Origin: Gloeopeniophorella convolvens
Taxonomy: Eukaryota; Basidiomycota; Agaricomycetes; Russulales
DNA length: 33,816 nucleotides
NCBI GenBank assembly: GCA_022496205.1
Contig: WTXD01000130.1
Location: forward strand, 1 to 33,816
Reading direction: 5' to 3'
The notes below the pieces were generated by a model. It did no database searches and had not been told where the DNA came from. It was given only the letters and a program-made list of their open reading frames with translations. Below, in pieces: positions 1,039-31,652 of the stretch (position 1 is its first letter; each line of letters starts with the position of its first letter). The position numbers and the translations under genes are program-made.

Positions 1039-1564
1039 TGTTGAGACGGACAGGACTCAGGACAGGAAGGACGTCTCTGATTAGATTAGATAAGGGACTC
1101 GGTGATCTGCGAGCTATCTGATCTACAATGTATATGACATCATTATGTTCTAGCCCCTAAGGCTGTACCTACTTTCGTTCCTGTTCTAGATTCTTCCGGG
1201 CTCTTCCATGACCCACATGCAGTTCCGGGTTGACCCACCTGCAGTTCCGGTCGACCCACTTTAGTTCCGCTTTCACATGGGTCTCTGGTTATCACATGTT
1301 GCTGTTGTTTATCACATGCAAACCACACTCCTTTTGTGTATATAAAGGACGCTGTTTTCGCCCTTGTAGCCTCAGTCTGTTGACTTCACTGACTGAGGCA
1401 AGTACTTTACTTCCGGAACTTCCGGACTTGCGCTTACCTAGTTACTTTAGCTTTGCTCTTGCTTGCCTAGGTATTGCGCCAATGACATTTAGTCTGTTGA
1501 CTTCACTGACTGAGCTTTGCTCTTGCTTGCCTAGTTGGCACCCTGTTTCTGCTGCGCTTCAACA
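1039..1564 (+). mobile_element. Solo Copia-type LTR, family A, with 5-bp target duplication
   Basis: The element begins TGTTGAGACGG and ends GCGCTTCAACA. It is flanked on both sides by AAAGG (1034-1038 and 1565-1569), a perfect 5-bp target-site duplication, so this is a solo LTR left by recombination. A TATA box (TATATAAA, 1339-1346) precedes the predicted cap site at A1374 in a TCAGTC context. Downstream are an exon-intron-exon module and its intronless copy (annotated separately). It resembles LTR family B in termini, TATA context and hairpin but is diverged in much of U3 and in exon2. It interrupts Copia-1 between gag and protease. Confidence 0.93.
1374..1534 (+). other. LTR-A leader: predicted intron plus tandem spliced copy
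   Basis: Exon1 is 1374-1397 and starts at the predicted cap site. A 53-nt intron-like segment 1398-1450 begins GCAAGT, has CTTAC about 18 nt before its end, and ends TTTAG. Exon2 is 1451-1470. A spacer starting GTATTG (1471-1490) follows. Then 1491-1534 repeats exon1 and exon2 joined, identical over 44/44 bases and lacking exactly the intron-like segment. The second copy ends in TAG and is followed by TTGGCACC. So the spacer plus second copy (1471-1534, 64 nt) also reads as a GT-AG intron. Sequence relations are seen directly; splicing is inferred. Confidence 0.8.
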
Positions 1565-2603
1565 AAAGGCTTCCGGGTTTGTGCCCTTTGGGGTGACGTC
1601 CTGCTTCATCTCCGCGCTGTTCGCAGATCCCTGCGAACCTTTCGACTGCGCGTTCCCCCCACTTCCGCACTTCCACCCTGCTGACCGTTTCTATCACCAG
1701 ACCCCTTCGATTTGTCCCTAGCGCGCTGCTTCGAAGACTTGCAGTCGCGCTTGATGTGGCCCGTCTTGCCACACTTGAAACAGGTGCGCTTGTCTGTTGA
1801 TTTGGATGATTTGCTGCCACCTGAGCTGCCGCCGGCTTTGTCTGGCAGTGTGAATGAGTACAGCACCAGATCCGATCCGCTGGAAGGTTCACCACGTCGA
1901 TTTGACGCATTTTCGATTTGCCGACAATGTACTCGCTAGCAGCATGGTTCATGACCATTGAGGGGGTGAGCGACCTCCCTGCAACTTCTGCTGCTGCCGT
2001 GATTGATGCGAACAGGTAGCTGTACGTTTTCGGCAACGATTTGACCAGGATTGCAGCGTACTCGTCGTCCTCGAGTCTGACTCCCATGCCTGAAAGTTCT
2101 TCATGCATGTACCACATGCGATCAAGGTGCTCCCGTACGTTCGTGGTTTCAGCACACTTTGCAAGGTTGATCCGATTTCACAGATCGTTGACGACAGCCT
2201 GCGTGCGGCCTTCGAAGTCGGAACGGAGGGCCTCCCACATCTCCTGAGCGGTGTTGAGATGCTGAATCCGAATCAGGATCATGTCGGATAAGGTGGTGAG
2301 GAGCTGCTGTTTGACAATGAACTCCCAGGTCTCCCAATCGTCCATGGCTAGCTCGTAAGCTACCATTGCTTTCTCGTACTCCTCCTTCTCGTCTTTGGTG
2401 GCGCCCTTTGCAGGTGCTGCCGGTTCAGCAGGTGCCTTCACGCATCCATCAAGGTGCCGATGGAGGAGCCCACGCGACCCGAGTGACGTTGTGATGCGAC
2501 TCTTGTACGTGACCCAGTTTGCACCATTCGGGAGAAGTCGGGGGATGGAGAGGAGAGATGAGGATTGGGAAAGGAGGGTATCGGGGATAGCTTCAGGGCC
2601 CAT
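1565..2603 (-). pseudogene. Copia-1 gag with CCHC zinc knuckle (broken)
   Basis: The start ATG at 2603-2601 lies inside the primer-binding site directly after the 5' LTR. The N-terminal part (2603-2178) contains the usual capsid-like helical region (NGANWVTYKSRI, WETWEFIVKQQL, EMWEALRSDF). A TGA at 2178-2180 interrupts it, and the frame then continues with NRINLAKCAETTNVREHL and the segment LDRMWYMHEELSGMGVRL. A frameshift near 1866 moves the reading to the frame carrying the nucleocapsid zinc knuckle CFKCGKTGHIKRDC (CX2CX4HX4C, about 1790-1750), followed by a basic Lys/Arg/Gly-rich tail. A second frame change is needed before the protease. Gag would form the virus-like particle that packages element RNA. 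Identity is firm; the copy cannot make intact Gag. Confidence 0.88.
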
Positions 2604-2607
2604 AACC
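2593..2607 (-). promoter_or_regulatory. Copia primer-binding site, initiator tRNA-Met anticodon-arm type
   Basis: Immediately inside the LTR end (CAACA) the minus strand reads GGTTATGGGCCC. This is complementary to GGGCCCATAACC, the anticodon arm and loop of eukaryotic initiator tRNA-Met with its CAT anticodon. Drosophila copia and yeast Ty5 are primed by that half-tRNA region rather than by the tRNA 3' end. The gag ATG pairs with the anticodon. The same block recurs at 13011-13022. Confidence 0.75.
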
Positions 2608-2815
2608 TGTTGAGCAACGGTTTCGGTGGCGGGGGAACTAGATAATAAGCAGACGACTCAGTCTCTGACAAGAAGACTCAGATTGCACTTTGTATGTACC
2701 TAGATAATAAGCAGACGACTATCTAGAGTGAGAAAAGACATTTGGAATAGAAGTACTGTAAGCTACTCACCTCAGTCTCTGACAAGAAGACTGAGGTATT
2801 ACATTGGGCAAGCGT
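2608..2815 (-). mobile_element. 5' LTR remnant of Copia-1, family E
   Basis: On the plus strand it starts TGTTGAGCAACGG next to the primer-binding site. Read on the minus strand it holds the 3' part of an LTR: a leader module with intron-like segment, the intronless copy, then a C-rich tail ending CAACA. The outer (U3) boundary is not visible. No TATA box is seen about 30 nt upstream of the cap position, and beyond about 2815 the sequence looks unrelated, so U3 is probably truncated. The end coordinate is approximate. Confidence 0.7.
2638..2792 (-). other. LTR-E leader: predicted GT-AG intron plus tandem spliced copy
   Basis: On the minus strand exon1 is 2792-2771. A 52-nt segment 2770-2719 begins GTGAGT, has CTCAC about 15 nt before its end, and ends GATAG. 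Exon2 is 2718-2700. The spacer 2699-2679 begins GTACAT. The joined copy 2678-2638 equals exon1 (22/22) plus exon2 (19/19) with the segment missing, and ends CTAG before TTCCCCC. This is the same layout as LTR families A and B, here with a canonical GT donor. Confidence 0.8.
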
Positions 2816-4905: not shown

Positions 4906-5390
4906 TGTTGAAGTGCAGCAGAGGGTGGAGTGACAACTGAAGGACACAGAGTGACGCTCAGTCAGAGAAGGTCAAAAGACTTATACATTAGTGCAATACC
5001 TGAAGGACACAGAGTGACGCTACAAGGTAGGGTAAGCATAAGGTAGAAGTGAAAGGAGCGGTAGTGTACTTGCCTCAGTCAGAGAAGGTCAAAAGACTGA
5101 GGCTACAGAGGCGAAGAAAGAGGTCCTTATATACAGTAAGGAGCGACAGATAGCATGTGATAAACACTGCTTAGAAAGCCTAGGAGACCCACATGAAACG
5201 GAGTAAGAGTGGGTACCGGAGTACAAGGTGGGTCATGGAATGCCCTAGAATAGTCCAGAACATGGAAACGAATGTGGGGCTGAGCACAGCCTTAAGTCTA
5301 GAACATTATGTACACAAGATAAGATAGTCCTTGATCATTAGGTCCATATCTAATCTAATCAGAGCCGCCAGGACACTGTCCGTCTCAACA
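4906..5390 (-). repeat. Copia-2 3' LTR (family B, copy B1)
   Basis: 485 bp, TGTTGAAG to CTCAACA on the plus strand, in minus orientation. TATA box at 5133-5126, intron-like segment at 5073-5020 (GCAAGT to TAG), and joined exon1-exon2 copy at 4981-4937. The same layout is present in all three family-B copies of the window. Confidence 0.92.
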
Positions 5391-7399: not shown

Positions 7400-7798
7400 T
7401 GGTGTGTATCCGGCCGAACCCGGTGTCGTACGACTTTCATGATTCCGCACGATGCCACGTTGCTTCACTCTTTTCTCCTCCCTCCATCTTCCCGCATTTC
7501 CCCTCCCCCGTTTCTCCTTCCCTTCCCCTCCTGCCATACCTGCAAGCCCACCACCTGCAAACCAAGGTCAGTATAGGAAGGAGCTGGGGATATGGGTGAG
7601 CATTCAGCACATCCTACACGGTTTTGCTAACTTACTGTTAGTACAACACTTTGCTGGCTTGCTGCTGCCTGCATCTCCCTGTTGGTTCTCGCTCCTCTGA
7701 CTGACATAAGGTATGTCTCCTTCCTGCTCTTTCATGTACTATTGTTGACTTTGTTGAGCACAGTCTCTTTGATCCCCAGCTGGATGACTTGTGGCTGA

Positions 7799-7851
7799 GG
7801 GTTAGGGTTAGGGTTAGGTGTTCAGGGTGAGGGGATATTAGGGTTAGGGTT
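7799..7851 (+). repeat. Interstitial telomere-type repeats (TTAGGG)
   Basis: Three tandem TTAGG(G) units at 7799-7818 are followed by a degenerate stretch, then two more units at 7838-7851. TTAGGG is the telomere repeat of most filamentous fungi. They lie inside the inverted-repeat element, not at a chromosome end. Confidence 0.8.
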
Positions 7852-8148: not shown

Positions 8149-8812
8149 AGGGCGAGGTCAACTGAACCTTTATTGTCGCCATGCAAGAGGATTGGATCTT
8201 CAACATTGTATCCTAGCTCAGAGTAAAAGCTCTGATACCACGCGGCTTGATTGCCAGTGTCGGTTAAGGCCATGTACTCGGCTTCAGTGGTGCTGAGGGC
8301 GATGGTCTTTTGCTTGCGCGAGGACCAGGAGATTGCGCCTTCTGCTAGAAGGAATACGTAGCCAGAGGTGGAACGATAGTCGTCTGGGTTGTCTCCCCAG
8401 CTTGAGTCGGAGTAACCATAAAGTCCGACCCCATTGGCCCCATCATAGCGGATGCGATAGTTAATAGTCCCCTTGAGGTATTTGAGGACATATTTTGCAA
8501 GGCTTAGATGTTTTGGTGAGGGATTTGCTGCGTACTGGGCAAGGCGTCCCACAGCAAAGGAAATGTCCAGTCTAGTGCCAAGGTTTGCATAGAGCAAACT
8601 TCCGATGAGAGATTGAGAGTACTGTCTCTCTTCAGCGGATGCCTCCTTATCTGACTTGACAAGGTGCACTTCGGCGCCGGCAGGAAGGGGGGTGAGGTTA
8701 GGATCGGCACCATCTAGCTTGAATTGCTTCAGCTTGTGGAGGATATATCCTGACTGGTCAATCTCTAGGCGGCGTAAGGGTCGATCGCGAGTAATGCGAA
8801 CCCCGAGGTAGG
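8149..8812 (-). pseudogene. Copia-2 reverse transcriptase end and RNase H N-terminal part
   Basis: The minus strand carries LIGSLLYANLGTRLDISFAV, GYSDSSWGDNPDDYRSTSGY, SWSSRKQKTIALSTTEAEYM and LLHGDNKGSVDLAL. These are the connection domain and RNase H motifs of Copia (D of YSDSSW, E of STTEAEYM, D of GDN). Upstream it reads GYILHKLKQFKLDGADP up to the solo LTR at 8813. The frame is open over about 540 bases until the inverted-repeat element cuts it at 8148. RNase H degrades the RNA template during cDNA synthesis. Confidence 0.88.
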
Positions 8813-9464
8813 TGTCACGAACACTAAGGCCTCAAGGAGGTCGAACTGCTTAGAACACTAGAGCAAATCCAGCCCTACCAGTAAATACCCTACGCGTCGC
8901 TCACAATGCGACGCGTACCACTCACATTGCGACTACAAGTTGAAATACATCATGTGACCCTTCACCCCCATTCCTCACCCTACTCCCTAATGGCCAATTA
9001 ACCCTGGAATACCCCCAAGATCCCGGACTAGGGATCTCTCAGAATGGCCATATTACTCGTCCCAAAGTAACCAGAACCTTGATCAAGGTGAAACACTTCA
9101 TGCGTCCTCTTTGGGACTCTGATCATCAAGAACTCCATGGGGCCTCAAGCCCCACTCTGCGATGGAATCTAAGAAGCGTATCAGAGAGGAGAGGTTATGG
9201 GGAATCCCCTCTGGAATCCCCATCAGTAATTAGACCAGATTCGTCTGGGGGATCTCCAGTAGTATATAAGACCCCCATGTATCGCCCAGTGGTCCTCAGA
9301 CTGTCCATCTGTGGCACTCTCATCTGTACCTAGCACTGCAATAGCACTGTTAGTGTGTTCCCTCTCTGCTCCTGCATATCGCAGCTCATCTTCTGTCTAT
9401 CCCCCTCGACGCTCTCCAAACTCTGCTATCCTCTCTGCGCGCACTCCGCGAGTGAGTCCTGACA
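8813..9464 (+). mobile_element. Solo LTR-C (copy C1), Ty3/Gypsy family, perfect target duplication
   Basis: 652 bp, TGTCACGAACACTAAGG to GTGAGTCCTGACA. GTAGG flanks both ends (8808-8812 and 9465-9469). TATA box TATATAAG at 9263-9270. U3 holds an inverted repeat ACGCGTCGC/GCGACGCGT (8892-8900, 8908-8916). It interrupts the Copia-2 reverse transcriptase shortly after the YVDD block. The family is the LTR of the Gypsy element at 31653-33816. Confidence 0.93.
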
Positions 9465-11944
9465 GTAGGACTGGATTTCTCCAAGATCCGTCATCTCATA
9501 GCGCGCACTAAGAGCAGTCTTGATGCGAGTAACCTGAGATAGGGAGTTCCCCATCAAAGTGATGTCGTCAACGTATAGAATAATGATGATTTTTATATCC
9601 CCCCACGTTGAAGATACACATAGATCCCAGCATCTGAGACCGTGCGCGTGAAGCCGAGTTCCTCAAGAACTCCATGGAATTGCAAGTTCCATGCGCGTGA
9701 AGCTTGTTTGAGACCGTAGATTGCCTTTTTAAGGCGGCAGACCTTGTTCTCCTGGCCTGGTACTGCGAAACCTTGTGGTTGCTCCATATAGATCTCTTCA
9801 TCCAGGTTGCCATGAAGGAACGCCGACTTGACATTCATCTGGTGGATTTCCCAATCCTCTAGCACAGCTAACGCTAGCAAGAGTCGTAGTGACTCAAATC
9901 TGGCAACTGGAGAGAAGGTTTCGTCGTAGTCTATCCCAGGGACTTGTGTAAAGCCCTTTGCCACCAACCGAGCTCGAAAGTGTCCATCTGCTTTGAGCTT
10001 GAAAACCCATTTGGATTTTACAGCTTTGCGACCTGCAGGGAGATCCATTAACTCCCATGTGCCGTTCTTGACAAGAGCGTCCATTTTATATTGCACGCTT
10101 CAGTCCATTCCTCCGCGTTTTCAGACCGCATTGCCTCTTTATAAGTGGCAGGATCTTCACCAATTGCAGCTGCAAGTAGCTCTGCAATTCCCAGACGTCC
10201 AGACCGGAATTCAGCATTATCTCCAGAGTAGTACTTGGGGTTAGGACGATGCGGACGCGCAGTGCGCCGCACAGGCCGAGCCTCATCCATTTCCCTAAGT
10301 AGCCGGCTACGTTGCGTGGTATCCCCCCGCATTTGCTCAGGAGTTGGGCAGGGTGGATCTACTACTGGCGGCTGAATTATGGGTTCCAGTCTCTCCATGT
10401 GTGGAGATACCACGGCTGGCCGGTGAACTGGCCGTGTGGTGCGTCTTTGAGGGGTCTGAGGGACCGGTGTTTGTCTGAACAGAGGTGGAGGAGTGACAGG
10501 TCGCTGTACAATGAAGGGGTTTTCTTCCTGTTTTTCTTCCTTTGCAGGCGGATTAGGCGGCGCAGGAGAGGGAACAGGAGGTGGTGGAGGCGGTGGATTC
10601 GCCGGTGGGATAGCAAGTTGTACCGTTGGCACTGGTAAGACAACTAGGGCTTGTTGGAGAACAGTAGAGGACGGCTCAGGCCTCTGCTTAGATGGGAATG
10701 TGCTCTCATCAAAGGTCACATCGCGGGACACTTCAATGGAGTGAGTACGTCCATTCCATAGTCAGTAGCCCTTAGAACCCGACTCGTACCCAACAAACGT
10801 GGTCTCAATCGCCTTAGCGTTGAGTTTCCTACGCTTGTCACTAGGCACATGTTTATATGCCAAGCATCCGAAGACGCGAAAGTAAGAGACATCAGGAGTG
10901 TGACCAGCACTCCAGCGCTCAATGGGTGTGCGCCACTCAAGCGTTCTGGTAGGGGTACGGTTATAGACGTGCACAGCAGCGCCTACTGCTAATTCCCAGA
11001 AGCCGAAAGACAGTCCAGCATGATGTAGCATGGACAGTGCCTTATCCATAATGGTGCGGTTAAACCGCTCAGCTTTACCATTCTGCTGAGGTGACCCTGG
11101 CATCGTGGTGTGATGCTCAATTCCCTTCTCCTGAGGATCTCCTTGACAGTGCCTGACAGGTACTCGCCACCTCGGTCTGAATGCAGAGCCTTTAGCGGTT
11201 GGGCAGTTTGAGTTTCCGCCCATGCTAGGAACTTCCTGAAGGCTGCAGCAAACTGATCCTTGGTTTTAAGGTAAAAGACGACTGCATGACGCGAGTAGTC
11301 GTCTATGAAAGTGGCTGTGTACCGGGCACCTTAGATGGAGTCCTTCTGCATAGGCCCTGCAAGATCGCTGTGAACGATCTCTAGAATGCGAGAGGCCTTT
11401 TTGGAGGAGTGAGGGAAAGGAAGTCGTGTGCTCTTGCCGAATTCACAAGCCGGACAAGGAGCAGAGGGCACGACTGAGTTATCAAGTGCAAGACCCGTAA
11501 CAGAGTCTGCATGGCGCTTTAGGGTTTCATATGATACATGACCCATGCGCTGATGCCAGAGGTCCAAAGTGAGGGCAGTGGACCCAACATGTGCATTGAA
11601 GGACTGTACTGAGGCGTCTAACCAGTAAAGGTTGCCTTCTAAGTAGCCCGTTGCAACATGACTCTGGTTGACAGAGATTTTAAAGGAGCGTTCCTCAAAC
11701 GTGACAGTGGCCCCTTCTGTGCTAGAGCATGCGTAGATATAAAGTGTGTCTTGACATTTGGAATATGCAGCACATTGTTGAGGGTTATCACGGAGTTCTG
11801 TCCTGTTTTGAAGACGACGGTGCCAACACCACATTGCTCGACTGTAGAGTTGTCTCCCAGGCTTATACTGCCTTTGGTGAGGGAGTAGTCTGTGAAGTCG
11901 GAGCGATAGGGAGTGATATGGTGTGTTGCGTCAGAGTCCATCAT
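9465..11944 (-). pseudogene. Copia-2 pol: protease, integrase and reverse transcriptase (broken)
   Basis: From 11944 down the order is protease (DSDATHHITPY, with the active-site Gly changed to Asp), the pre-integrase H/C domain (LWHQRMGHVSYETLKRH, CPACEFGKSTR), and the integrase core (FIDDYSRH, HSDRGGEYLSGTVKEIL, SPQQNGKAERFNRT). Next come the GYxLW..RTHSIEVSRDVTF domain, a proline-rich linker, and reverse transcriptase (KWVFKLKADG, KGFTQVPGIDYDETFSPVAR, VKSAFLHGNLDEEIYMEQP, YGLKQASRAW, YVDD at 9575-9564). Breaks: TAA at 11331-11333 (probable CAA), a frameshift near 11130, TGA at 10762-10764 (probable CGA), a one-base loss near 10090, and an extra base in a C6 run at 9599-9604 just before YVDD. 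The solo LTR at 8813 then splits it. Identity is certain; the copy is inactive. Confidence 0.9.
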
Positions 11945-12601
11945 CTGTCAGGACTCACTCGCGGTGTGCGCGCAGAGAGGATAGCAGAGGGGTTTGGAGA
12001 GTGTCGCAAGGGGGAAGACAGAAGATGAGCTGTGATGTGCAGGAGCAGAGTGGGAACACACTAACAGTGCTATTGCAGTGCTAGGTACAGATGAGAGTGC
12101 CACAGATGGACAGTCTGAGGACCACTGGGCGATACATGGGGGTCTTATATACTACTGGAGACCCCCCAGACGAATCTGGTCTAATTACTGATGGGGATTC
12201 CAGAGGGGATTCCCCATAACCTCTCCTCTCTGATACGCTTCTTAGATTCCATCGCAGAGTGGGGCTTGAGGCCCCATGGAGTTCTTGATGATCAGAGTCC
12301 CAAAGAGGACGCATGAAGTGTTTCACCTTGATCAAGGTTCTGGTTACTTTGGGACGAGTAATATGGCCATTCTGAGAGATCCCTAGTCCGGGATCTTGGG
12401 GGTATTCCAGGGTTAATTGGCCATTAGGGAGTAGGGCGAGGAATGGGGGTGAAGGGTCACGTGATGCATTTCGACTTGTAGTCGCAATGTGAGTGGTACG
12501 CGTCGCATTGTGAGCGACGCGTAGGGTATTTACTGGTAGGGCTGGATTTGCTCTAGTGTTCTGAGCAGTTCGACCTCCTTGAGGCCTTAGTGTTCGTGAC
12601 A
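11945..12601 (-). mobile_element. LTR-C copy C2, in reverse orientation
   Basis: About 657 bp, TGTCAGGACTCACTCGC to GTTCGTGACA on the plus strand. The flanks differ (ACATC at left, GCTCC at right), unlike the other solo copies. It lies between the Copia-2 protease and a short unrecognised stretch where gag should be. This suggests that a deletion or ectopic LTR-LTR recombination removed the original flank together with most of gag. Confidence 0.88.
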
Positions 12602-13010
12602 GCTCCCACTGAAGGGCAGACGGCCAACCATTCACTAGCCAAAAAGCGTCACAAGGGGCTTCCCCCCTGCTTGCCTAAGGGGCCATAAGGGCCGCTCTTC
12701 TGGCTCCACACACAGCAGCTGACTACTGCACGCTGGTGGGTTTCCCCAGGAACATGTACAGTAGTGTATAGTAAAAGTACTGTAGGTGCGCACTGTGGGG
12801 TGAGGAAGCTTACTGTGGTTCTGCGTCGCCACGCTCCGTCCCACAGCTTGCAGGAAGTCCGGTTAGGATCCAAGTGCTATGCACAATCCCATGGCCTAGC
12901 CAGGGAAGGAGGAAGGAAAGAATGGAACAGAGGCTCGCCTTGTTGGGAGTGAAGATGCGTTGTCTTGTCAAGGGAGCTTGTGTAAATCTTCAGTGCAAGG
13001 TATTTAGGCA
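12602..13010. other. Unrecognised 0.4 kb segment in place of Copia-2 gag
   Basis: Starting from the primer-binding site, the minus strand reads ATG GGC CCT GCC TAA, so the gag frame closes after four codons. The rest shows no capsid or zinc-knuckle motif in any frame. It is either a remnant of another insertion or rearranged sequence. Confidence 0.5.
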
Positions 13011-13022: not shown

Positions 13023-13507
13023 TGTTGAAGCGCAGCAGAGGGTGGAGTGACAACTGAAGGACACAGAGTGACGCTCAGTCCGAGAAGGTCAAAAGACTTA
13101 TACATTAGTGCAATACCTGAAGGACACAGAGTGACGCTACAAGGTAGGGTAAGCATAAGGTAGAAGTGAAAAGAGCAGTAGTGTACTTGCCTCAGTCAGA
13201 GAAGGTCAAAAGACTGAGGCTACAGAGGCGAAGAAAGAGGTCCTTATATACAGTAAGGAGCGACAGATAGCATGTGATAAACACTGCTTAGAAAGCCTAG
13301 GAGACCCACATGAAACGGAGTAAGAGTGGGTACCGGAGTACAAGGTGGGTCATGGAATGCCCTAGAATAGTCCAGAACATGGAAACGAATGTGGGGCTGA
13401 GCACAGCCTTAAGTCTAGAACATTATGTACACAAGATAAGATAGTCCTTGATCATTAGGTCCATATCTAATCTAATCAGAGCCGCCAGGACACTGTCCGT
13501 CTCAACA
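13023..13507 (-). repeat. Copia-2 5' LTR (family B, copy B2)
   Basis: 485 bp, TGTTGAAGCGC to CTCAACA on the plus strand. TATA box 13250-13243, predicted intron 13190-13137, joined copy 13098-13054. The joined copy has one mismatch to its exons in this LTR (CAGTCCGAG versus CAGTCAGAG). This end abuts gene 2 coding sequence. Confidence 0.92.
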
Positions 13508-21915: not shown

Positions 21916-23283
21916 TGGAGACCCAGATGGACCGTGTTCTAAGATGTTGCGGGCTGTTGCTTAAAGGTCGTGCACCATTGGTCGGGTGAGTAGTAATTTT
22001 AGCTGGGGTACGCAGAGCACGTGCGAATCGAACCCTGCAAACGTCCATTCGAAATGCCACTACGTCGAGGCCGTGTTGAAACTGCTTCTGTAAATCTACA
22101 TCGCACCATCAATGTCATCAACTGGCTTCGTTCCCGGATATTTTCGGTGAGGGAGAGAAGGTCGGGGGGAGGAGGGCCCGACGGGAGAAGCGCGGCACCC
22201 CGGGCTGAGAACGAAGTCGGAGTTGATCAAAGTTTCTCAATAATTATTCCCACACATCAGAAATGTGGGAATCTTGTGGAAAGTCCGACTCCGACCTCGG
22301 CATACCGCGGGCATGGCTTCCCCTAGAGCCCTCTCTGGCCCTGCCAAGTTTGCGGTACTTGCTATCATAATTGTCCACTGGCATATAGCGCCGTACTGCT
22401 AATATCATCTGCTCAATTTAAGCATAGCCTTGCATGCTGAGCATAGGTATGATGCGATGTGTGACGCAATCACTCAAGATAAGAGCTCGATCAATGTCAT
22501 CAGAAAAAAGGCGCAGGGATTGCCCCGGGTTACGCCGACCAGCCGAGCACCGAAATGGGCCGAAATAGGCCGCTGTTGGGTTAGAGTCGGTTGTAACACC
22601 GCAAAACCTTACATAACTGCAAATTGAGCCTCGCATGGCATATCCGTGCTTTCATGGCACTCCTATCACGGTTATGATAGATTGCATCTGAGTTACTGTG
22701 GGTTTTGGACAGGTTTCAATTGGGTATTGATCATACTCTATTCAACTTCTCATTTATCTGTGCTCTGACTGTGTCTGTATCCCAGCTTGATATTATTAAT
22801 GTTCTGTAGGCATTCCCATTCAGCGGTGATGAAGCCTTATACATGTTGGAGCACAATGTGGTTCCTCTAATCACTGATCTCCTTGACAGACGAAAGCTTC
22901 ATAAAAACTGTTTACCATTTTTATGTTACGGCCATACATTGGCTTCACTACTTGCTTCTCTATACCTCGTCAGTACTCTACCAGAATAATATGGCACGAA
23001 TGTCAGTCTCGTGCGTGCAAGATGCAGCCAACTCACGCGCCTTGCATGTGTGGGGTACAGCTGAGCCATATGCCTCATAGGTGCTGACTTGAACTCGTCA
23101 CGAACGGGCATATATTTGTGATGCAAACTTGTCGTGATTGGGCATGCATGTGCATACATGGTAACATTGAGCCACATGTTTCATACACATATATCAGTGC
23201 AAGCTGCATAGCTATACATGTTTGTGTACATCCGGTCTGGATTCTGCAACATATGTTCTGTCTGCTGGTCACTCCGTTCTTAC
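21916..23283. other. Spacer with one nested inverted repeat
   Basis: No recognisable gene. At 22216-22295 lies a nested inverted repeat: outer arms GTCGGAGT/ACTCCGAC and inner perfect 9-bp arms ATTCCCACA (22246-22254) and TGTGGGAAT (22264-22272) around a 9-nt loop. The last 300 bases are AT-rich and lie before a solo LTR. Confidence 0.5.
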
Positions 23284-23342
23284 TGTCAGGACTCACTCGC
23301 GGTGTGCGCGCAGAGAGGATAGCAGAGGGGTTTGGAGAGCGT

Positions 23343-26312
23343 TGTTAGGGTCCAGCGGTCTCTACGCTCGGAAACCTCGGATCTGGGTATTTTGCCCTGC
23401 GAAGCGATCGGGTTGAGCTGGGTAGCAAAGGATGTGACCCCAGACTGCCCTTGAGTGCAGATGCGAGCTTGTACGTTTGTATATTGCAGTTCCCTTTACT
23501 TCCTTTTCCTTCCTGGTTCCTTTACACTTTCGGGTTGCAGGAAACCCTTGTACCTACCGGATTTGGCTTCGGGTTCCCACGTAGTCAGTAGTACTGCATC
23601 CTGTAGTGTTTTGGATCAAAAAGCTTCCTTTCCCCGGTGCTCCCATCTCATTTCGGGTCTGCGTCGCGTTCAGAGACTCTCCCTCACTCTCTGGAGGGCC
23701 CGAGGCCTTCCAGGACCTTCGGGTCAGCTTCAGGTTGTGTTCCTGCGAGTTCGGGTCCTTCCCTTGCGTTTCCGAGCGGATCCTTGCAGTCACTAGCTCA
23801 CCCTATTGCTCATCCGACCACCCAATCCTCATCCCATCACCCCTGGCGACTATAGCAACTCCCCTCGGTCCACATCTCTAGCTGGACTCAGGATATCAAA
23901 ATGGTGACCACCGCAGGGGGTGTGGGTTTGAGGTTTTGTGTTTAGGATCCCTAGAGCATCCCCCAGAGCAAGTTGACATAGCATGCGTACCCCACGAGGC
24001 AAGACAGCGTCCCACAGGTTCCTCATGCATCCTCGACCCCTCCCGACCAGTTTCCTTCAGTTTCCGAGCGTCCCCTCTCAGTTCCGAGTGGCTGAAGAGC
24101 ACCCGAAGCATTCCCTCACATTCCTTTGCCTTTCCTCGCGTTTCCGACCCTCCCTGCGCATTTGCGAGCTGTTGGGGCATTCCTAGCCATCCCTAACGCG
24201 TTCTGGATGTTCCCCCATGCTTTCCGGCGATTCCTCACATCATCCGACTTCACCTCATGTTTCTGATGTGTTCTAGCGATCCAGGGTCTTCGCTTCCGAC
24301 CCTGAGCAGCTCTAGGCTTCCCGAGCATCACCTTATCGCTTCAGATCACATCCTTTCGCGTTTACGAGCACCCGAGAGCAAACCCGAAGGTTCCGAGCCA
24401 ATCAGAATGCAGAGATTAGAAGGAGGCTCTTGGAGAGCAACCACCACCACCAGACATCGTCCCCCTGCGCAGGAAGCAGTCAGCAGCGATCCTTTCACTT
24501 TCCCGTCCATCCCTTCGTCGTCCCGGTCATCCCCTCACGTTTCCGAGTCTAGTTTCGCATTTCCGAGTCCAGAAGACAGCTTCAGGCACCCAGTGGCATC
24601 CAGAGGCAGTGGATTGCGTCGGATCACAACGGATTGCTTCCGGTTTGCGTTCCAAGCACTTCCCTTCGACCCCTTTGCGTTTCCGGTCACCCGCACCTCA
24701 TCCTCAGTCTCGGATCAGCATCCCTCAGTCTCAGAGGCGTCCCAGCGAGTTCCTAGAGCATTTCCGAGCGGTTGCAGGCAGCAGCAAGCGATACGCAGCA
24801 CAGAAGCATCCTAGTGCAAGCCGGCAGCATCCTACTTCTCGATTTCGCAATCCAGGTTCTCCAGAGGCAATCCGAGGCTACAGGTGGTGTTTCCAGGTGT
24901 CCAGCAGTCACAGAGGCGTCGGATCGGCTCGGATCGGCATCCCTTAGCTTCCCAATCCCTTCCCTCGCATTCCTAGCCATCTCCCAGCAAGTCTAGGTCC
25001 AGATTCATGTTTTGCAGCTCGGATTTGCGTTTCTCGGTTCCAGAAGGCTTCCAGCAGTGTTTGCAAGTGGTTCCGACCTCGGATCGGGTTGAGCGCGTCC
25101 CAGTCGCGTCCCCCAGCATCCTTGAGCTTAGGGTTCCGTTTTTGGGCTTCAGGCTACGGTTTCAAGCGACGCGGAGCATCCTTGAGCGTTCCGAAGAGTC
25201 CTAAGGCATCCCGAGCAGTCATAGGCATCCAGATTGCAACCCCTCGCGTTTCCGAGCTCGAACCTGCGCTCCGGATCCATTGGAGAAGGTTCCAAGCGCT
25301 TAGAGGCAGGACCTTTATCCAGAGGTGCGATTCCTTCACCCAGAATGTGCGGCATACTTCCAGGTTGAATGGGCTTCATTTCCACCACATTCCTTCGCGT
25401 TCTGCGTCTTCTTTCGGATTCTCAACATCCCAGTGCGGCTGCGAGCAGTTAGCATCAGGTTTTAGCGTTCCGGCCACCCCTTCCACTCGTTTTCGACACT
25501 CTTTCGACGCGGACAACCCTACGACCTTTCCGACGACAGTAGCGCCAACCCGAGGCGACTCATGACCTTGTTTGATGTCTTCCGGCCACCAGCGACCCGG
25601 AGACTTGCGGTTCCCTTGCGGATTTCATTGCGGACTTTGCGGTGCGGCTTGCGGTTATTTGCGGTGCGTTCCTATTGCGGTTGCGGTTGCGGTTGCGGTT
25701 GCGGACTTTGCGTGCGGGAGAACAGAGGACTGTTCAGAGCTCAGTTGGGAGGAGGATGTTAGGGTCCAGCGGTCTCTACGCTCGGAAACCTCGGATCTGG
25801 GTATTTTGCCCTGCGAAGCGATCGGGTTGAGCTGGGTAGCAAAGGATGTGACCCCAGACTGCCCTTGAGTGCAGATGCGAGCTTGTACGTTTGTATATTG
25901 CAGTTCCCTTTACTTCCTTTTCCTTCCTGGTTCCTTTACACTTTCGGGTTGCAGGAAACCCTTGTACCTACCGGATTTGGCTTCGGGTTCCCACGTAGTC
26001 AGTAGTACTGCATCCTGTAGTGTTTTGGATCAAAAAGCTTCCTTTCCCCGGTGCTCCCATCTCATTTCGGGTCTGCGTCGCGTTCAGAGACTCTCCCTCA
26101 CTCTCTGGAGGGCCCGAGGCCTTCCAGGACCTTCGGGTCAGCTTCAGGTTGTGTTCCTGCGAGTTCGGGTCCTTCCCTTGCGTTTCCGAGCGGATCCTTG
26201 CAATCACTAGCTCACCCTATTGCTCATCCGACCACCCAATCCTCATCCCATCACCCCTGGCGACTATAGCAACTCCCCTCGGTCCACATCTCTAGCTGGA
26301 CTCAGGATATCA
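23343..26312 (+). mobile_element. Element D: young non-autonomous LTR retrotransposon
   Basis: Two direct LTRs (23343-23898 and 25757-26312, 556 bp each, TGTTAGGG to GGATATCA) differ by one visible base (GCAGTCACT versus GCAATCACT). They flank a 1.86 kb interior with a primer-site candidate TGGTGACCACCGC from 23902 and a polypurine tract GGGAGGAGGA just before the right LTR. The target duplication is GCGT, or AGCGT if the LTR ends in C. The interior has no gag, protease, integrase or reverse transcriptase motif. It is rich in degenerate TTTCCGAG and GCATCC words and ends in a TTGCGG array. It fits a large retrotransposon derivative that depends on another element's enzymes; near-identical LTRs imply a recent insertion. 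Confidence 0.88.
25675..25704 (+). repeat. TTGCGG hexamer array inside element D
   Basis: Five perfect tandem TTGCGG units, with looser copies from about 25628 to 25712. It lies about 50 bases before the polypurine tract of element D. Confidence 0.9.
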
Positions 26313-26913
26313 GCGTCACAAGGGGGAAGACAGAAGATGAGCTGCGATGTGCAGGAGCAGAGTGGGAACACACTAACAGTGCTATTGCAGTGCTAGGTAC
26401 AGATGAGAGTGCCACAGATGGACAGTCTGAGGACCACTGGGCGATACATGGGGGTCTTATATACTACTGGAGACCCCCCAGATGAATCTGGTCTAATTAC
26501 TGATGGGGATTCCAGAGGGGATTCCCCATAACCTCTCCTCTCTGATACACTTCTTAGATTCCATCGTAGAGTGGGGCTTGAGGCCCCATGGAGTTCTTGA
26601 TGATCAGAGTCCCAAAGAGGACGCATGAAGTGTTTCACCTTGATCAAGGTTCTGGTTACTTTGGGACGAGTAATATGGCCATTCTGAGAGATCCCTAGTC
26701 CGGGATCTTAGGGGTATTCCAGGGTTAATTGGCCATTAGGGAGTAGGGTGAGGAATGGGGGTGAAGGGTCACATGATGTATTTCAACTTGTAGTCGCAAT
26801 GTGAGTGGTACGCGTCGCATTGTGAGCGACGCGTAGGGTATTTACTGGTAGGGCTGGATTTGCTCTAGTGTTCTGAGCAGTTCGACCTCCTTGAGGCCCT
26901 AGTGTTCGTGACA

Positions 26914-27161
26914 CTTACATTGGAACAGATCAACATGTATTATTGGGGTAATCTATGGAGCAGACACAAAGAGTTTACGACATAGATGTGAATGCTACGA
27001 CGCTGACATGAGCAAAATGTGAGCACTACGGTGCAGGCATGAATATTCTACGCAGTCAGGGAAAGTAATCTACGAAATGATGAGGGAGAAGCATTATATG
27101 AAGAAAACATACGCATTCATAGAGCAAGCAAACAATTCGATGGAAGTGCACATCCGGAGTT
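26914..27161. other. Short spacer downstream of the DUF6698-like gene
   Basis: About 250 bases without a coding frame of note; a CTACG word recurs several times. It probably contains the 3' untranslated region of the gene to its right. Confidence 0.4.
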
Positions 27162-28302
27162 TCAAGCGCTGCCGCTAGCCTCGTCAGGTTCCATGCGCTC
27201 ATCTTCCTCATGACCGTCGGGCTCCTCGCTGGGCCTCATTTCCACGTCGTCATCAGGTTCCTCTTCGCTAGCCATGAGCTGAGCAAGCATCAAAGATAGT
27301 ACCGACGTTGGATCAGACTCTATCTCGGCAGAAATGTCGCCGTCGTCGATGTCGGCGGCGTAACCAAACAATTGACTAATGATGCCGTTGATAGTATGAG
27401 CAACATTCCAGTCACTGCAAGACAGACTTATAGATTCCACCAATCTAGCAACTCCTCACGATTGCCCTTTGGCAACTTGACATCGATGAGCCAGACAAGG
27501 AGGTTGTAGAACTTCTCATATGGCCACCTGCCTGCTTTACCTCTGGGGTAGAATGTAGCCTGGGAGCTGAGCACAAAATGTACCTGTAACCAGCCACACC
27601 AAGGCACGTTAAGTCTGATCGTAGTAACCAGGCATCGTACTTACCACAGTTGCCCCGTATGCAATAAGTCCACTTGTGACACAGCGAATACGGTGCTGCA
27701 AAGCCCTTGGCTTTGAATTGCCCCCGTTAGAGCAGATGTGGTGCGAGCGTCCGTTGGGTTCCTCATTGGCCGTTGCTGGACCGAAAAGTATCTGTTTTAC
27801 TGCCTTCACATCCAGAAGCGTTCAGTATGTTGATCGCATTGTTTGCTGCATGCATGCTCACCTTGACAAGCAGTCGGCCTCGGAGGAAGCCTTCAAAGAG
27901 GTCATCTTTGTCGGCAGTCTCGTTCTCCCATAGGAAGACTGGCCAGTCTTTGGGCCGGGTCGGATACTTCGGGTCATGAGTGATGAGGGCCTTCTGCACA
28001 CTGGGATCAAGGTTGTGTTGAGACGGACAGTGTCCTAGCGGCTCTGATTAGATTAGATATGGACCTAATGATCAAGGACTATCTTATCTTGTGTACATAA
28101 TGTTCTAGACTTAAGGCTGTGCTCAGCCCCACATTCGTTTCCATGTTCTGGACTATTCTAGGGCATTCCATGACCCACCTTGTACTCCGGTACCCACTCT
28201 TACTCCGTTTCATGTGGGTCTCCTAGGCTTTCTAAGCAGTGTTTATCACATGCTATCTGTCGCTCCTTACTGTATATAAGGACCTCTTTCTTCGTCTTTG
28301 TA

Positions 28303-28334
28303 GCCTCAGTCTTTTGACCTTCTCTGACTGAGGC
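28303..28334 (+). promoter_or_regulatory. Cap-proximal hairpin that contains the splice donor
   Basis: GCCTCAGTC (28303-28311) pairs perfectly with GACTGAGGC (28326-28334). The right arm covers the exon1 end and the first two intron bases (GC). LTR-A has the same arms (1369-1377, 1391-1399). LTR-E has ACCTCAGTC/GACTGAGGT with a GT donor, so the outer pair co-varies G-C to A-T. Confidence 0.6.
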
Positions 28335-28469
28335 AAGTACACTACCGCTCTTTTCACTTCTACCTTATGCTTACCTTACCTTGTAGCGTCACTCTGTGTC
28401 CTTCAGGTATTGCACTAATGTATAAGTCTTTTGACCTTCTCTGACTGAGCGTCACTCTGTGTCCTTCAG
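28308..28469 (+). other. LTR-B leader: predicted intron plus tandem spliced copy
   Basis: Exon1 is 28308-28332, its first base A in a CTCAGTC initiator-like context 35 nt after the TATA start. A 54-nt segment 28333-28386 begins GCAAGT, contains CTTACCTTACC and ends TTGTAG. Exon2 is 28387-28406. The spacer is 28407-28424 (GTATTGCACTAATG...). The joined copy 28425-28469 equals exon1+exon2 at 45/45 bases and ends TTCAG before TTGTCACTCC. Spacer plus joined copy (63 nt) reads as a second GT-AG intron with CTGAC as branch candidate. Removing both introns gives exactly the sequence of the joined copy followed by the LTR end. Confidence 0.82.
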
Positions 28470-29619
28470 TTGTCACTCCACCCTTTGCTGCGCTTCAACA
28501 GGTTGAGTGTCGGTTTGAGACAGGATACAGTAGTAACTAACTCACGCGGGATCATCCCAATTGTAAGATGCAGGGCAGAGTAGACATCCCATGACAGGAT
28601 GGCGGAAATTGCGGAATTCTTTGTTGTCGATGTGAGGTCCAGTGGGGCCGAAATCGTACCAATTGAGGATTGTCTTCTTAGCTGCAAATATGATGACGTT
28701 GCGCGTCTTGGAGCGGCCAACATCAATCTTTCCCATGGTGTTTTCAGTACGAGTTCACCGAGGCTCAGGAGTGAGGAAACGCACATCATCCGCAATACTC
28801 ATAGGCCCATCTTTGCCTTAATTAGCACATTCCTGGATTAGCTTCGGATGGAAACTAAGTAGCAGTTGAAATAGTTCCCAGTATTTGTTATCCCTGTGAG
28901 ATTTCAGACGCATGTTAGTAAACACCTACTTCTAAGACGTAACGAAAGTCTTACTGTGAGGAGAACATGGAGTCACTGGCGTTAGAATAATTGGAACGCT
29001 CTAGTCCATGAGTGATTATCGCGTCGAGAGGACGCCACATGTCCCCCATGATACCAAATATGCCTCCGCACGAGTCTACCACACGCCTATATTGAAGAGT
29101 CAGCTGTCAAGCCTTGCCTTCGCGGTGTAGCGTAAACATAAAGACACTGACCTGCGTGTACGTGCAGGCATTTGAACCAACTCGTCGTCCTCGTCATCTT
29201 CATCCTCATCAGGCCGAGCACGGCAACGGCCAATGATCTGGCTTCCCTGGGAAGGTGCAGAAAGGCGAGCCAGAGGGGTGGGAGTGGAAACGGGCGAGTG
29301 ACGGGGAGTGGAAGCTGCTGAGCGACGAGGAGTGGAACCCGGCAAACAGCGACGCAGAGACTGGGAAGTGCGAGGAGTCATGGTGAAGCTTTGGCACAAG
29401 AAGTAACGGTTGAGGGTGAAATCCTGAGGCGTGTCCATGAAGGTCTGCTGCTTTAAATAGGGCGACCTCCCACCGTATCCAGGCGACTCCTGTGCATCTA
29501 CACGCCAGTCTGAAATCTTGCATAAGCTAAAACAGGGTCAGAGCCATCCCCCTTCAGGTTAAGCCCATCGGAAAAGCCTTGGGATGCGGTGCGCATACCA
29601 CACAATCCTACAGTTCTTT

Positions 29620-30186: not shown

Positions 30187-30342
30187 ACCCAGGCATACGT
30201 CCAGGGAGCCCTCCCTATAGCATCTCCCTCAGCCTAAGGGGTGTATACAATGATGCCGCGTTTATCTGCGTTAGGGTGGATGATGTCCGCATCGCGCTGC
30301 AGGTCATATGTTGTGAAATTGATCCGAATTGTCTCGTGGCGG

Positions 30343-31652
30343 TGTCAGGACTCACTCGCGGTGTGCACGCAGAGAGGATAGCAGAGGGGTTTGGAGAGCG
30401 TCACAAGGGGGAAGACAGAAGATGAGCTGCGATGTGCAGGAGCAGAGTGGGAACACACTAACAGTGCTATTGCAGTGCTAGGTACAGATGAGAGTGCCAC
30501 AGATGGACAGTCTGAGGACCACTGGGCGATACATGGGGTCTTATATACTACTGGAGACCCCCCAGACGAATCTGGTCTAATTACTGATGGGGATTCCAGA
30601 GGGGATTCCCTATAGCCTCTCCTCTCTGATACACTTCTTAGATTCCATCGTAGAGTGGGGCTTGAGGCCCCATGTGTCACGAACACTAAGGCCTCAAGGA
30701 GGTCGAACTGCTCAGAACACTAGAGCAAATCCAGCCCTACCAGTAAATACCCTACGCGTCGCTCACAATGCGACGCGTACCACTCACATTGCGACTACAA
30801 GTCGAAATGCATCACGTGACCCTTCACCCCCATTCCTCGCCCTACTCCCTAATGGCCAATTAACCCTGGAATACCCCCAAGATCCCGGACTAGGGATCTC
30901 TCAGAATGGCCATATTACTCGTCCCAAAGTAACCAGAACCTTGATCAAGGTGAAACACTTCATGCGTCCTCTTTGGGACTCTGATCATCAAGAACTCCAT
31001 GGGGCCTCAAGCCCCACTCTACGATGGAATCTAAGAAGTGTATCAGAGAGGAGAGGTTATGGGGAATCCCCTCTGGAATTCCCATCAGTAATCAGACCAG
31101 ATTCGTCTGGGGGGTCTCCAGTAGTATATAAGACCCCCATGTATCGCCCAGTGGTCCTCAGACTGTCCATCTGTGGCACTCTCATCTGTACCTAGCACTG
31201 CAATAGCACTGTTAGTGTGTTCCCTCTCTGCTCCTGCATATCGCAGCTCATCTTCTGTCTATCCCCCTCACGCTCTCCAAACTCTGCTATCCTCTCTGCG
31301 CGCACTCCGCGAGTGAGTCCTGACACCATGGAGTTCTTGATGATCAGAGTCCCAAAGAGGAGTATGAAGTGTTTCACCTTGATCAAGGTTCTGGTTACTT
31401 TGGGACGAGTAATATGGCCATTCTGAGAGATCCCTAGTCCGGGATCTTGGGGGTATTCCAGGGTTAATTGGCCATTAGGGAGTAGGGTGAGGAATGGGGG
31501 TGAAGGGTCACGTGATGCATTTCGACTTGTAGTCGCAATGTGAGTGGTACACGTCGCATTGTGAGCGACGCGTAGGGTGTTTACTGATAGGGCTGGATTT
31601 GCTCTAGTGTTCTGAGCAGTTCGACCTCCTTGAGGCCCTAGTGTTCGTGACA
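30343..31652 (-). mobile_element. 3' LTR of the Gypsy element (LTR-C copy C4), split by another LTR-C
   Basis: LTR-C sequence at 30343-30674 and 31326-31652 in minus orientation forms one LTR. It directly follows the Gypsy polypurine tract (31653-31665) on the minus strand, so it is the 3' LTR of that element. Its left flank is GGCGG; the matching flank would be beyond the right window edge. Confidence 0.9.
30675..31325 (+). mobile_element. Solo LTR-C (copy C5) nested in the Gypsy 3' LTR, opposite orientation
   Basis: About 651 bp, TGTCACGAAC to GTCCTGACA, flanked by CCATG at 30670-30674 and 31326-31330. It is inserted into LTR-C copy C4 head-on, producing a near-palindromic pair of the same family. 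Confidence 0.94.

Follow-up and report, generated by a model that had tools for sequence, protein, structure and literature searches.

Copia-type LTRs in which R carries a putative intron and is followed by its own joined copy: a proposed landing site for spliced strong-stop DNA

Copia-type LTRs of Gloeopeniophorella convolvens carry the R region in two forms, one of them interrupted by a putative intron and the other, a short spacer downstream, with the two exons already joined. We describe this arrangement as U3-R(intron)-spacer-R'-U5 and, judging from the sequence, we consider it rather probable that R, spliced at the RNA 5' end, takes R' at the opposite end as its pairing partner. The reference case is LTR-B, located in the window, i.e., the whole stretch of 33,816 nucleotides that was analyzed (contig WTXD01000130.1). 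Here a 45-nt sequence is present with a 54-nt GC..AG segment inside it and is found again 18 nt downstream without the segment. The features of LTR-B, and two other copies of this LTR in the window, are the following:

28016..28500, plus strand: LTR-B, solo, 485 bp, with TGTTG..CAACA ends and the 5-bp target duplication GGTTG at 28011-28015 and 28501-28505
28273..28279, plus strand: TATATAA, 35 nt ahead of the predicted cap at 28308
28303..28311, plus strand: left arm of a hairpin, GCCTCAGTC, made of five U3 bases and the first four bases of exon 1
28308..28332, plus strand: exon 1, 25 nt, the start of R, with the predicted cap A at 28308
28326..28334, plus strand: right arm of the hairpin, GACTGAGGC, spanning the end of exon 1 and bases +1 and +2 of intron 1
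28333..28386, plus strand: putative intron 1, GC-AG, 54 nt, GCAAGT...TTGTAG
28387..28406, plus strand: exon 2, 20 nt
28407..28424, plus strand: spacer, 18 nt, its final base (28424) being the hypervariable base X
28425..28469, plus strand: R', exon 1 and exon 2 joined, 45/45, the predicted acceptor of minus-strand strong-stop DNA
28407..28469, plus strand: putative intron 2 (spacer and R'), 63 nt, GTATTG..TTCAG
28470..28500, plus strand: U5, 31 nt
13023..13507, minus strand: LTR-B as the 5' LTR of an element, adjoined by the primer binding site, X = A
4906..5390, minus strand: LTR-B as a 3' LTR, preceded by CGGGGGGA, X = A

The layout can be read directly from the DNA, as can the concerted identity of the two copies, the hypervariable base and the complementarity of the hairpin arms that are treated below. 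The original prediction had described the tandem block of LTR-B, and all its coordinates and counts proved correct on recheck, including the match of the joined copy (45/45). The joined copy does begin in the sequence exactly at the predicted cap, 35 nt after the start of TATATAA, and the splice features that had been noticed in the missing segment extend to relatives, with a GC or GT start and an AG end across families A, B, C and D. In LTR-B the segment can be shifted by 2 nt (AG stands at both edges, as is common at introns), and GC..AG is one of three placements.

Two more LTRs in the same window, LTR-A and LTR-D, share the layout of LTR-B, which the original prediction had not reported of them:

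1039..1564, plus strand: LTR-A, solo, with target duplication AAAGG
1374..1397, plus strand: LTR-A exon 1
1398..1450, plus strand: LTR-A intron 1 (putative)
1451..1470, plus strand: LTR-A exon 2
1471..1490, plus strand: LTR-A spacer
1491..1534, plus strand: LTR-A R'
1535..1564, plus strand: LTR-A U5
2608..2792, minus strand: LTR-D, R to U5, found by a blind scan for local copies without an inner segment
2792..2771, minus strand: LTR-D exon 1
2770..2719, minus strand: LTR-D intron 1 (putative)
2718..2700, minus strand: LTR-D exon 2
2699..2679, minus strand: LTR-D spacer
2678..2638, minus strand: LTR-D R'
2637..2608, minus strand: LTR-D U5
2594..2607, minus strand: primer binding site GGTTATGGGCCCTG after LTR-D, with copia gag-matching frames beyond

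The distance from TATA to cap is also 35 nt in LTR-A (1339 to 1374), which has a different exon 2, intron and spacer from LTR-B within an equal layout. LTR-D is very different in sequence: across U3, intron, exon 2, spacer and U5 it shares 51–59% identity with LTR-B (shuffled 49–51%) and 52–59% with LTR-A (shuffled 45–51%), and its exon 1 is 69–72% identical to exon 1 of either. It lacks a TATA at -35, and G stands at its X. Its intron 1 is of the GT-AG type and 52 nt long, the spacer begins with GT, and the joined copy of exon 1 and exon 2 matches at 41/41 positions.

A search of the genome (36.7 Mb) with a pattern made of exon 1 and GCAAGT gave 265 places, and the reversed control gave 0. 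The whole layout, R with its intron plus R', was matched at 258 places, most of the matches being 128 or 123 long and some 120–132; length changes at the seam may have occurred among the 120–132 matches, most of which are known by pattern only. The corresponding GT-type pattern matched one place genome-wide, LTR-D itself. Outside the 75 LTRs that were read (see below) the layout is known by pattern match alone. A refined scan for local copies without an inner segment, covering the window and 90 fetched loci (some of which overlap, so that some LTRs were counted twice), gave 90 events, of which 83 were splice-like on one strand. Six of the seven others lay within these LTRs or between neighboring ones, and one (L072) was in unrelated repeat-rich DNA. 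The unrefined version of the scan had given 84 splice-like and 797 other events, including opposite-strand readings of the same LTRs. The tandem layout exceeds chance and is recurrent rather than a one-off. Two more copia-type LTR ends with the same primer site were seen in L012 (minus strand, 648) and L013 (plus strand, 2901), and in these the scan flagged no tandem copy.

We parsed 77 LTRs from the window and the loci, after merging rows in which both LTR and flanks were identical (four loci under L066, for example) and omitting 12 partial hits. Two of them were intronless and the other 75 belong to families A (38), B (34) and C (3). Intron 1 starts with GCAAGT in 75/75, ends with TAG in 71 and CAG in 4, and measures 52–54 nt; the stretch formed by the spacer and R' starts with GTATTG in 75/75, ends with TAG in 39 and CAG in 36, and measures 60–64 nt. 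GCAAGT was part of the pattern that located these 75 LTRs and GTATTG was used to parse the spacer, and GCAAGT was also present in 36/36 rows printed from a layout pattern that does not contain it. Relatives in which the missing segment has other borders, which the original prediction had named as evidence against it, were absent; the borders are kept in the 75 parsed LTRs and in LTR-D. With GT/GC..AG borders, GCAAGT or GTGAGT at the start, TAG or CAG at the end, a length of 52–54 nt and an exact absence from a cDNA-like copy, the segment in R looks like a spliceosomal intron.

We propose that two introns are involved, intron 1 inside R and intron 2 formed by the spacer and R'. The latter had no place in the model of the original prediction. 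Its removal is inferred because the LTR stays the same size; losing intron 1 alone would lengthen the LTR in the next cycle, and if both introns were removed the product would be exon1-exon2-U5, which matches R'-U5. We also considered the spacer alone as a very short intron, and rejected it because 15–21 nt is too short.

The elements are Ty1/copia LTR retrotransposons, with TG..CA LTRs, 5-bp target duplications, a primer binding site, a polypurine tract and RVT_2 and gag domains. The 77 parsed LTRs comprised 36 solo LTRs flanked by identical 5-bp sequences, including the two intronless ones, as well as 15 5' LTRs, 18 3' LTRs and 8 others. The primer binding site GGTTATGGGCCC, which we take to match half of the initiator tRNA, follows 15 LTRs within two changes and also follows LTR-D. 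Beyond LTR-D a Retrotran_gag_2 match was found in 1503-2177 (42.6 bits, 5.8e-11, cut-off 27), and in 2178-2657 the same domain reached 23.7 bits, under the cut-off of 27. RVT_2 was found beside a family A 3' LTR (3.3e-44), the match being spread over two overlapping frames (L062 72-584 and 455-1546); the gag-side frame examined in this family, L063 2911-3396, had no domain match. In their LTR ends, 5-bp duplications, GGTTATGGGCCC primer site, purine tract CGGGGGGA, copia gag and RVT_2 these elements are the same as other Ty1/copia (Pseudoviridae). However, those have one R, the same at both RNA ends, whereas here R exists both with an intron and without it, as matched by pattern at 258 places. 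There were 822 related proteins, and among the best 120 of these 822 the top one is 80% identical over 74%. Comparison of LTR-B with plasmids gave no match, and comparison of the reverse transcriptase with viral contigs and prokaryote genome contigs gave no relative; as none of these collections consists of eukaryote genomes, these results carry little weight.

The two exon copies have evolved together. They are identical in 62/75 LTRs and differ by 1–3 bases in 13/75, so that R and R' within LTRs show 15 mismatches in 3339 positions, which is less than half of what pairs of LTRs show on average (0.0145 and 0.0165 per site). Comparison of family A with family B gives 88% identity for exon 1 and 61% for exon 2 (shuffled 52%). 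Some changes are present in both copies: an extra T in exon 1 of L037, an altered exon 2 in L038 and one base in L090. Because the copies agree within LTRs, shared changes included, though the families differ, the second copy appears to follow the spliced form of the first, i.e., concerted evolution would take place through the spliced form. One base change is found in R' alone in both L013 and L027 and is lacking in L002, the partner of L013; we take it as a mutation that followed insertion. The length of the spacer is fixed within each family (20 in 38 LTRs, 18 in 34 and 15 in 3). Apart from X, transitions predominate among the changes in families A (60 to 6) and B (54 to 11), as in repeat-induced mutation.

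The last base of the spacer, X, stands directly before R' and is hypervariable. Across the 258 places it is A in 107, C in 85, T in 60 and G in 6. Its nucleotide diversity is 0.679 in family A (n = 38) and 0.611 in family B (n = 34), against column means of 0.0145 and 0.0165, the top column in both families. In no other column do three bases each occur two or more times, and the neighboring columns hardly vary. The base preceding exon 1, the equivalent position at R, is C in 38/38 (A) and 34/34 (B). Otherwise identical LTRs of family A differ at X in 3/5 pairs, and among pairs with one other difference X differs in 9/16 (A) and 4/7 (B). Within elements X tends to be shared. It agrees in 3/3 pairs with equal target duplications (C/C, T/T, A/A) and in 11/15 pairs of LTRs spaced 5550–5850 bp apart, where chance is 0.33 and same-contig control pairs gave 35/100 (252 of the 258 places entered this test, one of them by hand). 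Two of the four discordant pairs join LTRs of different families (one consists of two solos, and the other was assigned to different families by match length), another (C404) has unequal target duplications and the last (C335) is unexplained. In C375 and C370, X agrees despite unequal target duplications. Since the two LTRs of an element tend to share X while otherwise identical LTRs differ, each copying cycle seems to fix X a single time, ahead of the doubling of the LTR and at the point where strong-stop DNA meets its acceptor. It is likely a fingerprint of minus-strand transfer at the seam.

There is a precedent in HIV-1. As reported in the relevant part of PMC12172438, about 5% of cycles change the base ahead of the start site, which is explained there by extension of a mismatched strong-stop end; copying of the cap, the proposed source of such errors, yields G. 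The seam is similar, but the new base in HIV-1 is G and precedes R, whereas here A, C and T prevail and the base precedes R'. We rejected X as a copy of the cap, which would give G, yet G is rare (6/258); the added base should have another source. A constraint from the splice acceptor (XAG without G) was also rejected, given that LTR-D has G at this position and the constraint is not needed.

A 9-bp hairpin can form over the 5' splice site of intron 1 between GCCTCAGTC, which consists of the last five U3 bases and four bases from the start of exon 1, and its complement GACTGAGGC. The arms pair 9/9 in 75/75 LTRs; the pattern used to locate the LTRs did not include the U3 part of the left arm. 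Of these nine pairs, 5–7 could also form at R'. In fold predictions for six LTRs and three U3 lengths, opening the 5' splice site costs 13.3–15.2 kcal/mol with U3 attached, against 3.9–6.8 when the RNA starts at the cap; with shuffled U3 tails the mean cost is 6.7–8.4 and 0–1 of 60 reach the value of the real U3. Within families A, B and C the evidence for the hairpin consists of invariance. LTR-D conserves the stem with a divergent loop, and its outer pair, at intron base +2, is A-U instead of the G-C of A, B and C (GT in D, GC in the others); this single compensatory change, in four rows, was matched by 125/500 shuffles. The RNA 5' end would lack the last five U3 bases and be unable to form the hairpin, so that the 5' copy alone should splice: according to the folding model, intron 1 could be spliced out at the 5' end but would be held in place at the 3' end, where R should be better hidden than R'. 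The predicted change of the fold at the donor by U3-derived bases resembles the gating found in foamy virus. In the account given in PMC3694450, 13 U3 bases alter the folding around the splice donor; by lengthening a stem they make the donor, which lies near the RNA start, hard to use in the 3' copy, while it stays accessible in the 5' copy. There, however, the stem controls polyadenylation, while in the copia LTRs R contains an entire intron and is followed by a copy already joined.

The cycle that we propose would run as follows. The RNA would start at the first base of exon 1, the predicted cap. At its 5' end introns 1 and 2 would both be spliced out, leaving exon1-exon2-U5, and tRNA-primed reverse transcription would copy this spliced leader as far as the cap. 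At the 3' end, which would lie beyond R', the last U3 bases would close the hairpin over the 5' splice site, so that intron 1 is kept, and the same hairpin would hide R, leaving R' as the acceptor. The strong-stop DNA would then pair with R' and not with R, and extension from R' through the spacer, exon 2, intron 1 and exon 1 into U3 would restore the layout of the LTR. Each transfer would rewrite R' from the spliced R and often leave a new base X at the seam. An unspliced leader that landed on R would be copied faithfully, and the layout would tolerate both outcomes. The start site might in this way act as a switch, transcription from the 5' LTR removing one hairpin arm and freeing the splice site while the hairpin of the 3' LTR retains the intron; the two RNA-end repeats would come from two places in the LTR and the intron would survive reverse transcription indefinitely. 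This particular reading we hold to be evenly balanced between right and wrong. Reverse transcription of spliced RNA should erase introns at the ends of retroelement RNA, and a stored, already spliced landing pad would solve this problem. If true, splicing would be part of strand transfer and of the replication cycle, the point of first-strand transfer could be read in genomic copies as a single hypervariable base, a natural record, and the U3 trick of foamy virus would serve another end.

Intronless LTRs might be expected to bear on this scheme. By pattern there are 38 + 1 LTRs without either intron, of which two were read, both solo with target duplications. Two intronless LTRs lie near whole-element spacing in C373 and C342, and less exactly in C123 (C342 also has a looser pair), and C183 and C268 each combine one intronless and one normal LTR, by spacing. 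Five places, by pattern match, keep intron 1 and have lost R'. Exact patterns fitting A, B and C found no case of intron 1 lost alone or of R' followed by a second spacer. We dropped the intronless LTRs as proof of spliced RNA, since recombination between the exon-1 copies gives the same product; both these and the LTRs that lost R' can arise by slips between the exon repeats. C precedes exon 1 in 38/39 intronless LTRs, so transfer of a full strong-stop DNA to R would not be their source if X is redrawn in every cycle.

Several other explanations have to be weighed against transfer into R'. The original prediction placed the RNA 3' end in the spacer and attached to this end, with no homology involved, the strong-stop DNA copied from the spliced leader, R' being made anew in each cycle. 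It needs the same spliced leader and yields the same LTR; X would be naturally untemplated and special to R', and the C before exon 1 in 38/39 intronless LTRs agrees with it. What has stood from it is that the second copy tracks the spliced form, now through evolution. The homology-free joining to a spacer-ended RNA is less likely and we regard the model as unlikely: the junction and spacer length are constant per family in the 75 LTRs with the last base alone hypervariable, there is no leftover tail of A's, and R' in the 3' LTR, if transcribed, offers 45 nt of homology. Given the fixed spacer length per family, the variable last base and this homology, ordinary strand transfer into R' explains the renewal. 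The identity of R and R' could also be maintained at the level of DNA. R' would then be an ancient tandem duplicate that recombination or gene conversion keeps similar to R, with no spliced RNA taking part now. Recombination between repeats would explain the 39 intronless LTRs and the five with intron 1 but no R'. However, conversion should also spread intron 1 or its loss, and loss of intron 1 alone was found 0 times by pattern; the LTRs of an element tend to share X, LTRs alike at all other positions differ in it, and GT/GC..AG borders recur across very different families. We give this possibility very little credit.

Even the spliced leader and R' being real, the hairpin might be just a promoter or initiator element, with intron 1 kept at the 3' LTR in some other way, e.g., by a weak donor that needs a nearby cap. 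GC donors are weak, and the GC pattern has 265 places against one for GT (LTR-D), but the stem is conserved with a divergent loop in LTR-D, together with the G-C to A-U exchange at intron base +2, and we find this version quite improbable. The Ty1 lariat, which is said to have been disputed later, suggests another possibility, in which a 2'-5' bond links the RNA 5' end to the base that precedes R' at the RNA 3' end, and X is scrambled when the branch is read through. The lariat proposed in PMC1266399 would connect the 5' nucleotide with the first position of R in the 3' LTR, and misreading at a branch would affect a single base. This is pure analogy, though, and any base at X seems to serve; a branched RNA is hardly credible here. 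Transfer of spliced strong-stop DNA into R' is thus the reading that we prefer.

LTR retrotransposons with an intron are found in plants as well. In Ogre and EVADE the introns are internal, outside the LTR, and the unspliced RNA is the genome RNA. These elements also bear a functional intron but, in the description provided by part of PMC12786077, their introns serve subgenomic RNAs, e.g., a short gag. In the portions of the open-licence PMC literature that were consulted, no LTR was found that combines an intron in R with a spliced copy of it.

Four family A 5' LTRs of G000 (C326, C370, C376 and C404; L070, L068, L067 and L066) have the 5' flank ACTATGCC in common, and in C370 and C404 the flank of the 3' LTR differs from this shared 5' flank, pointing to segmental copies, recombination or an assembly error. 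Another repeat, in part beginning TGTCAGGACTCACTCGCGG, occurs in both orientations in the window, with copies mostly 94–98% alike:

8803-9475, 11945-12607, 23283-23629, 25744-26923, 30342-31325 and 31364-31652, both strands: TGTCAGGACTCACTCGCGG-type repeat copies

Telomere-like AGGGTTAGGGGTTT units, together with a 24-bp tandem repeat, were also seen inside the contig, at 7798-7849 and 29280-29337 of the window.
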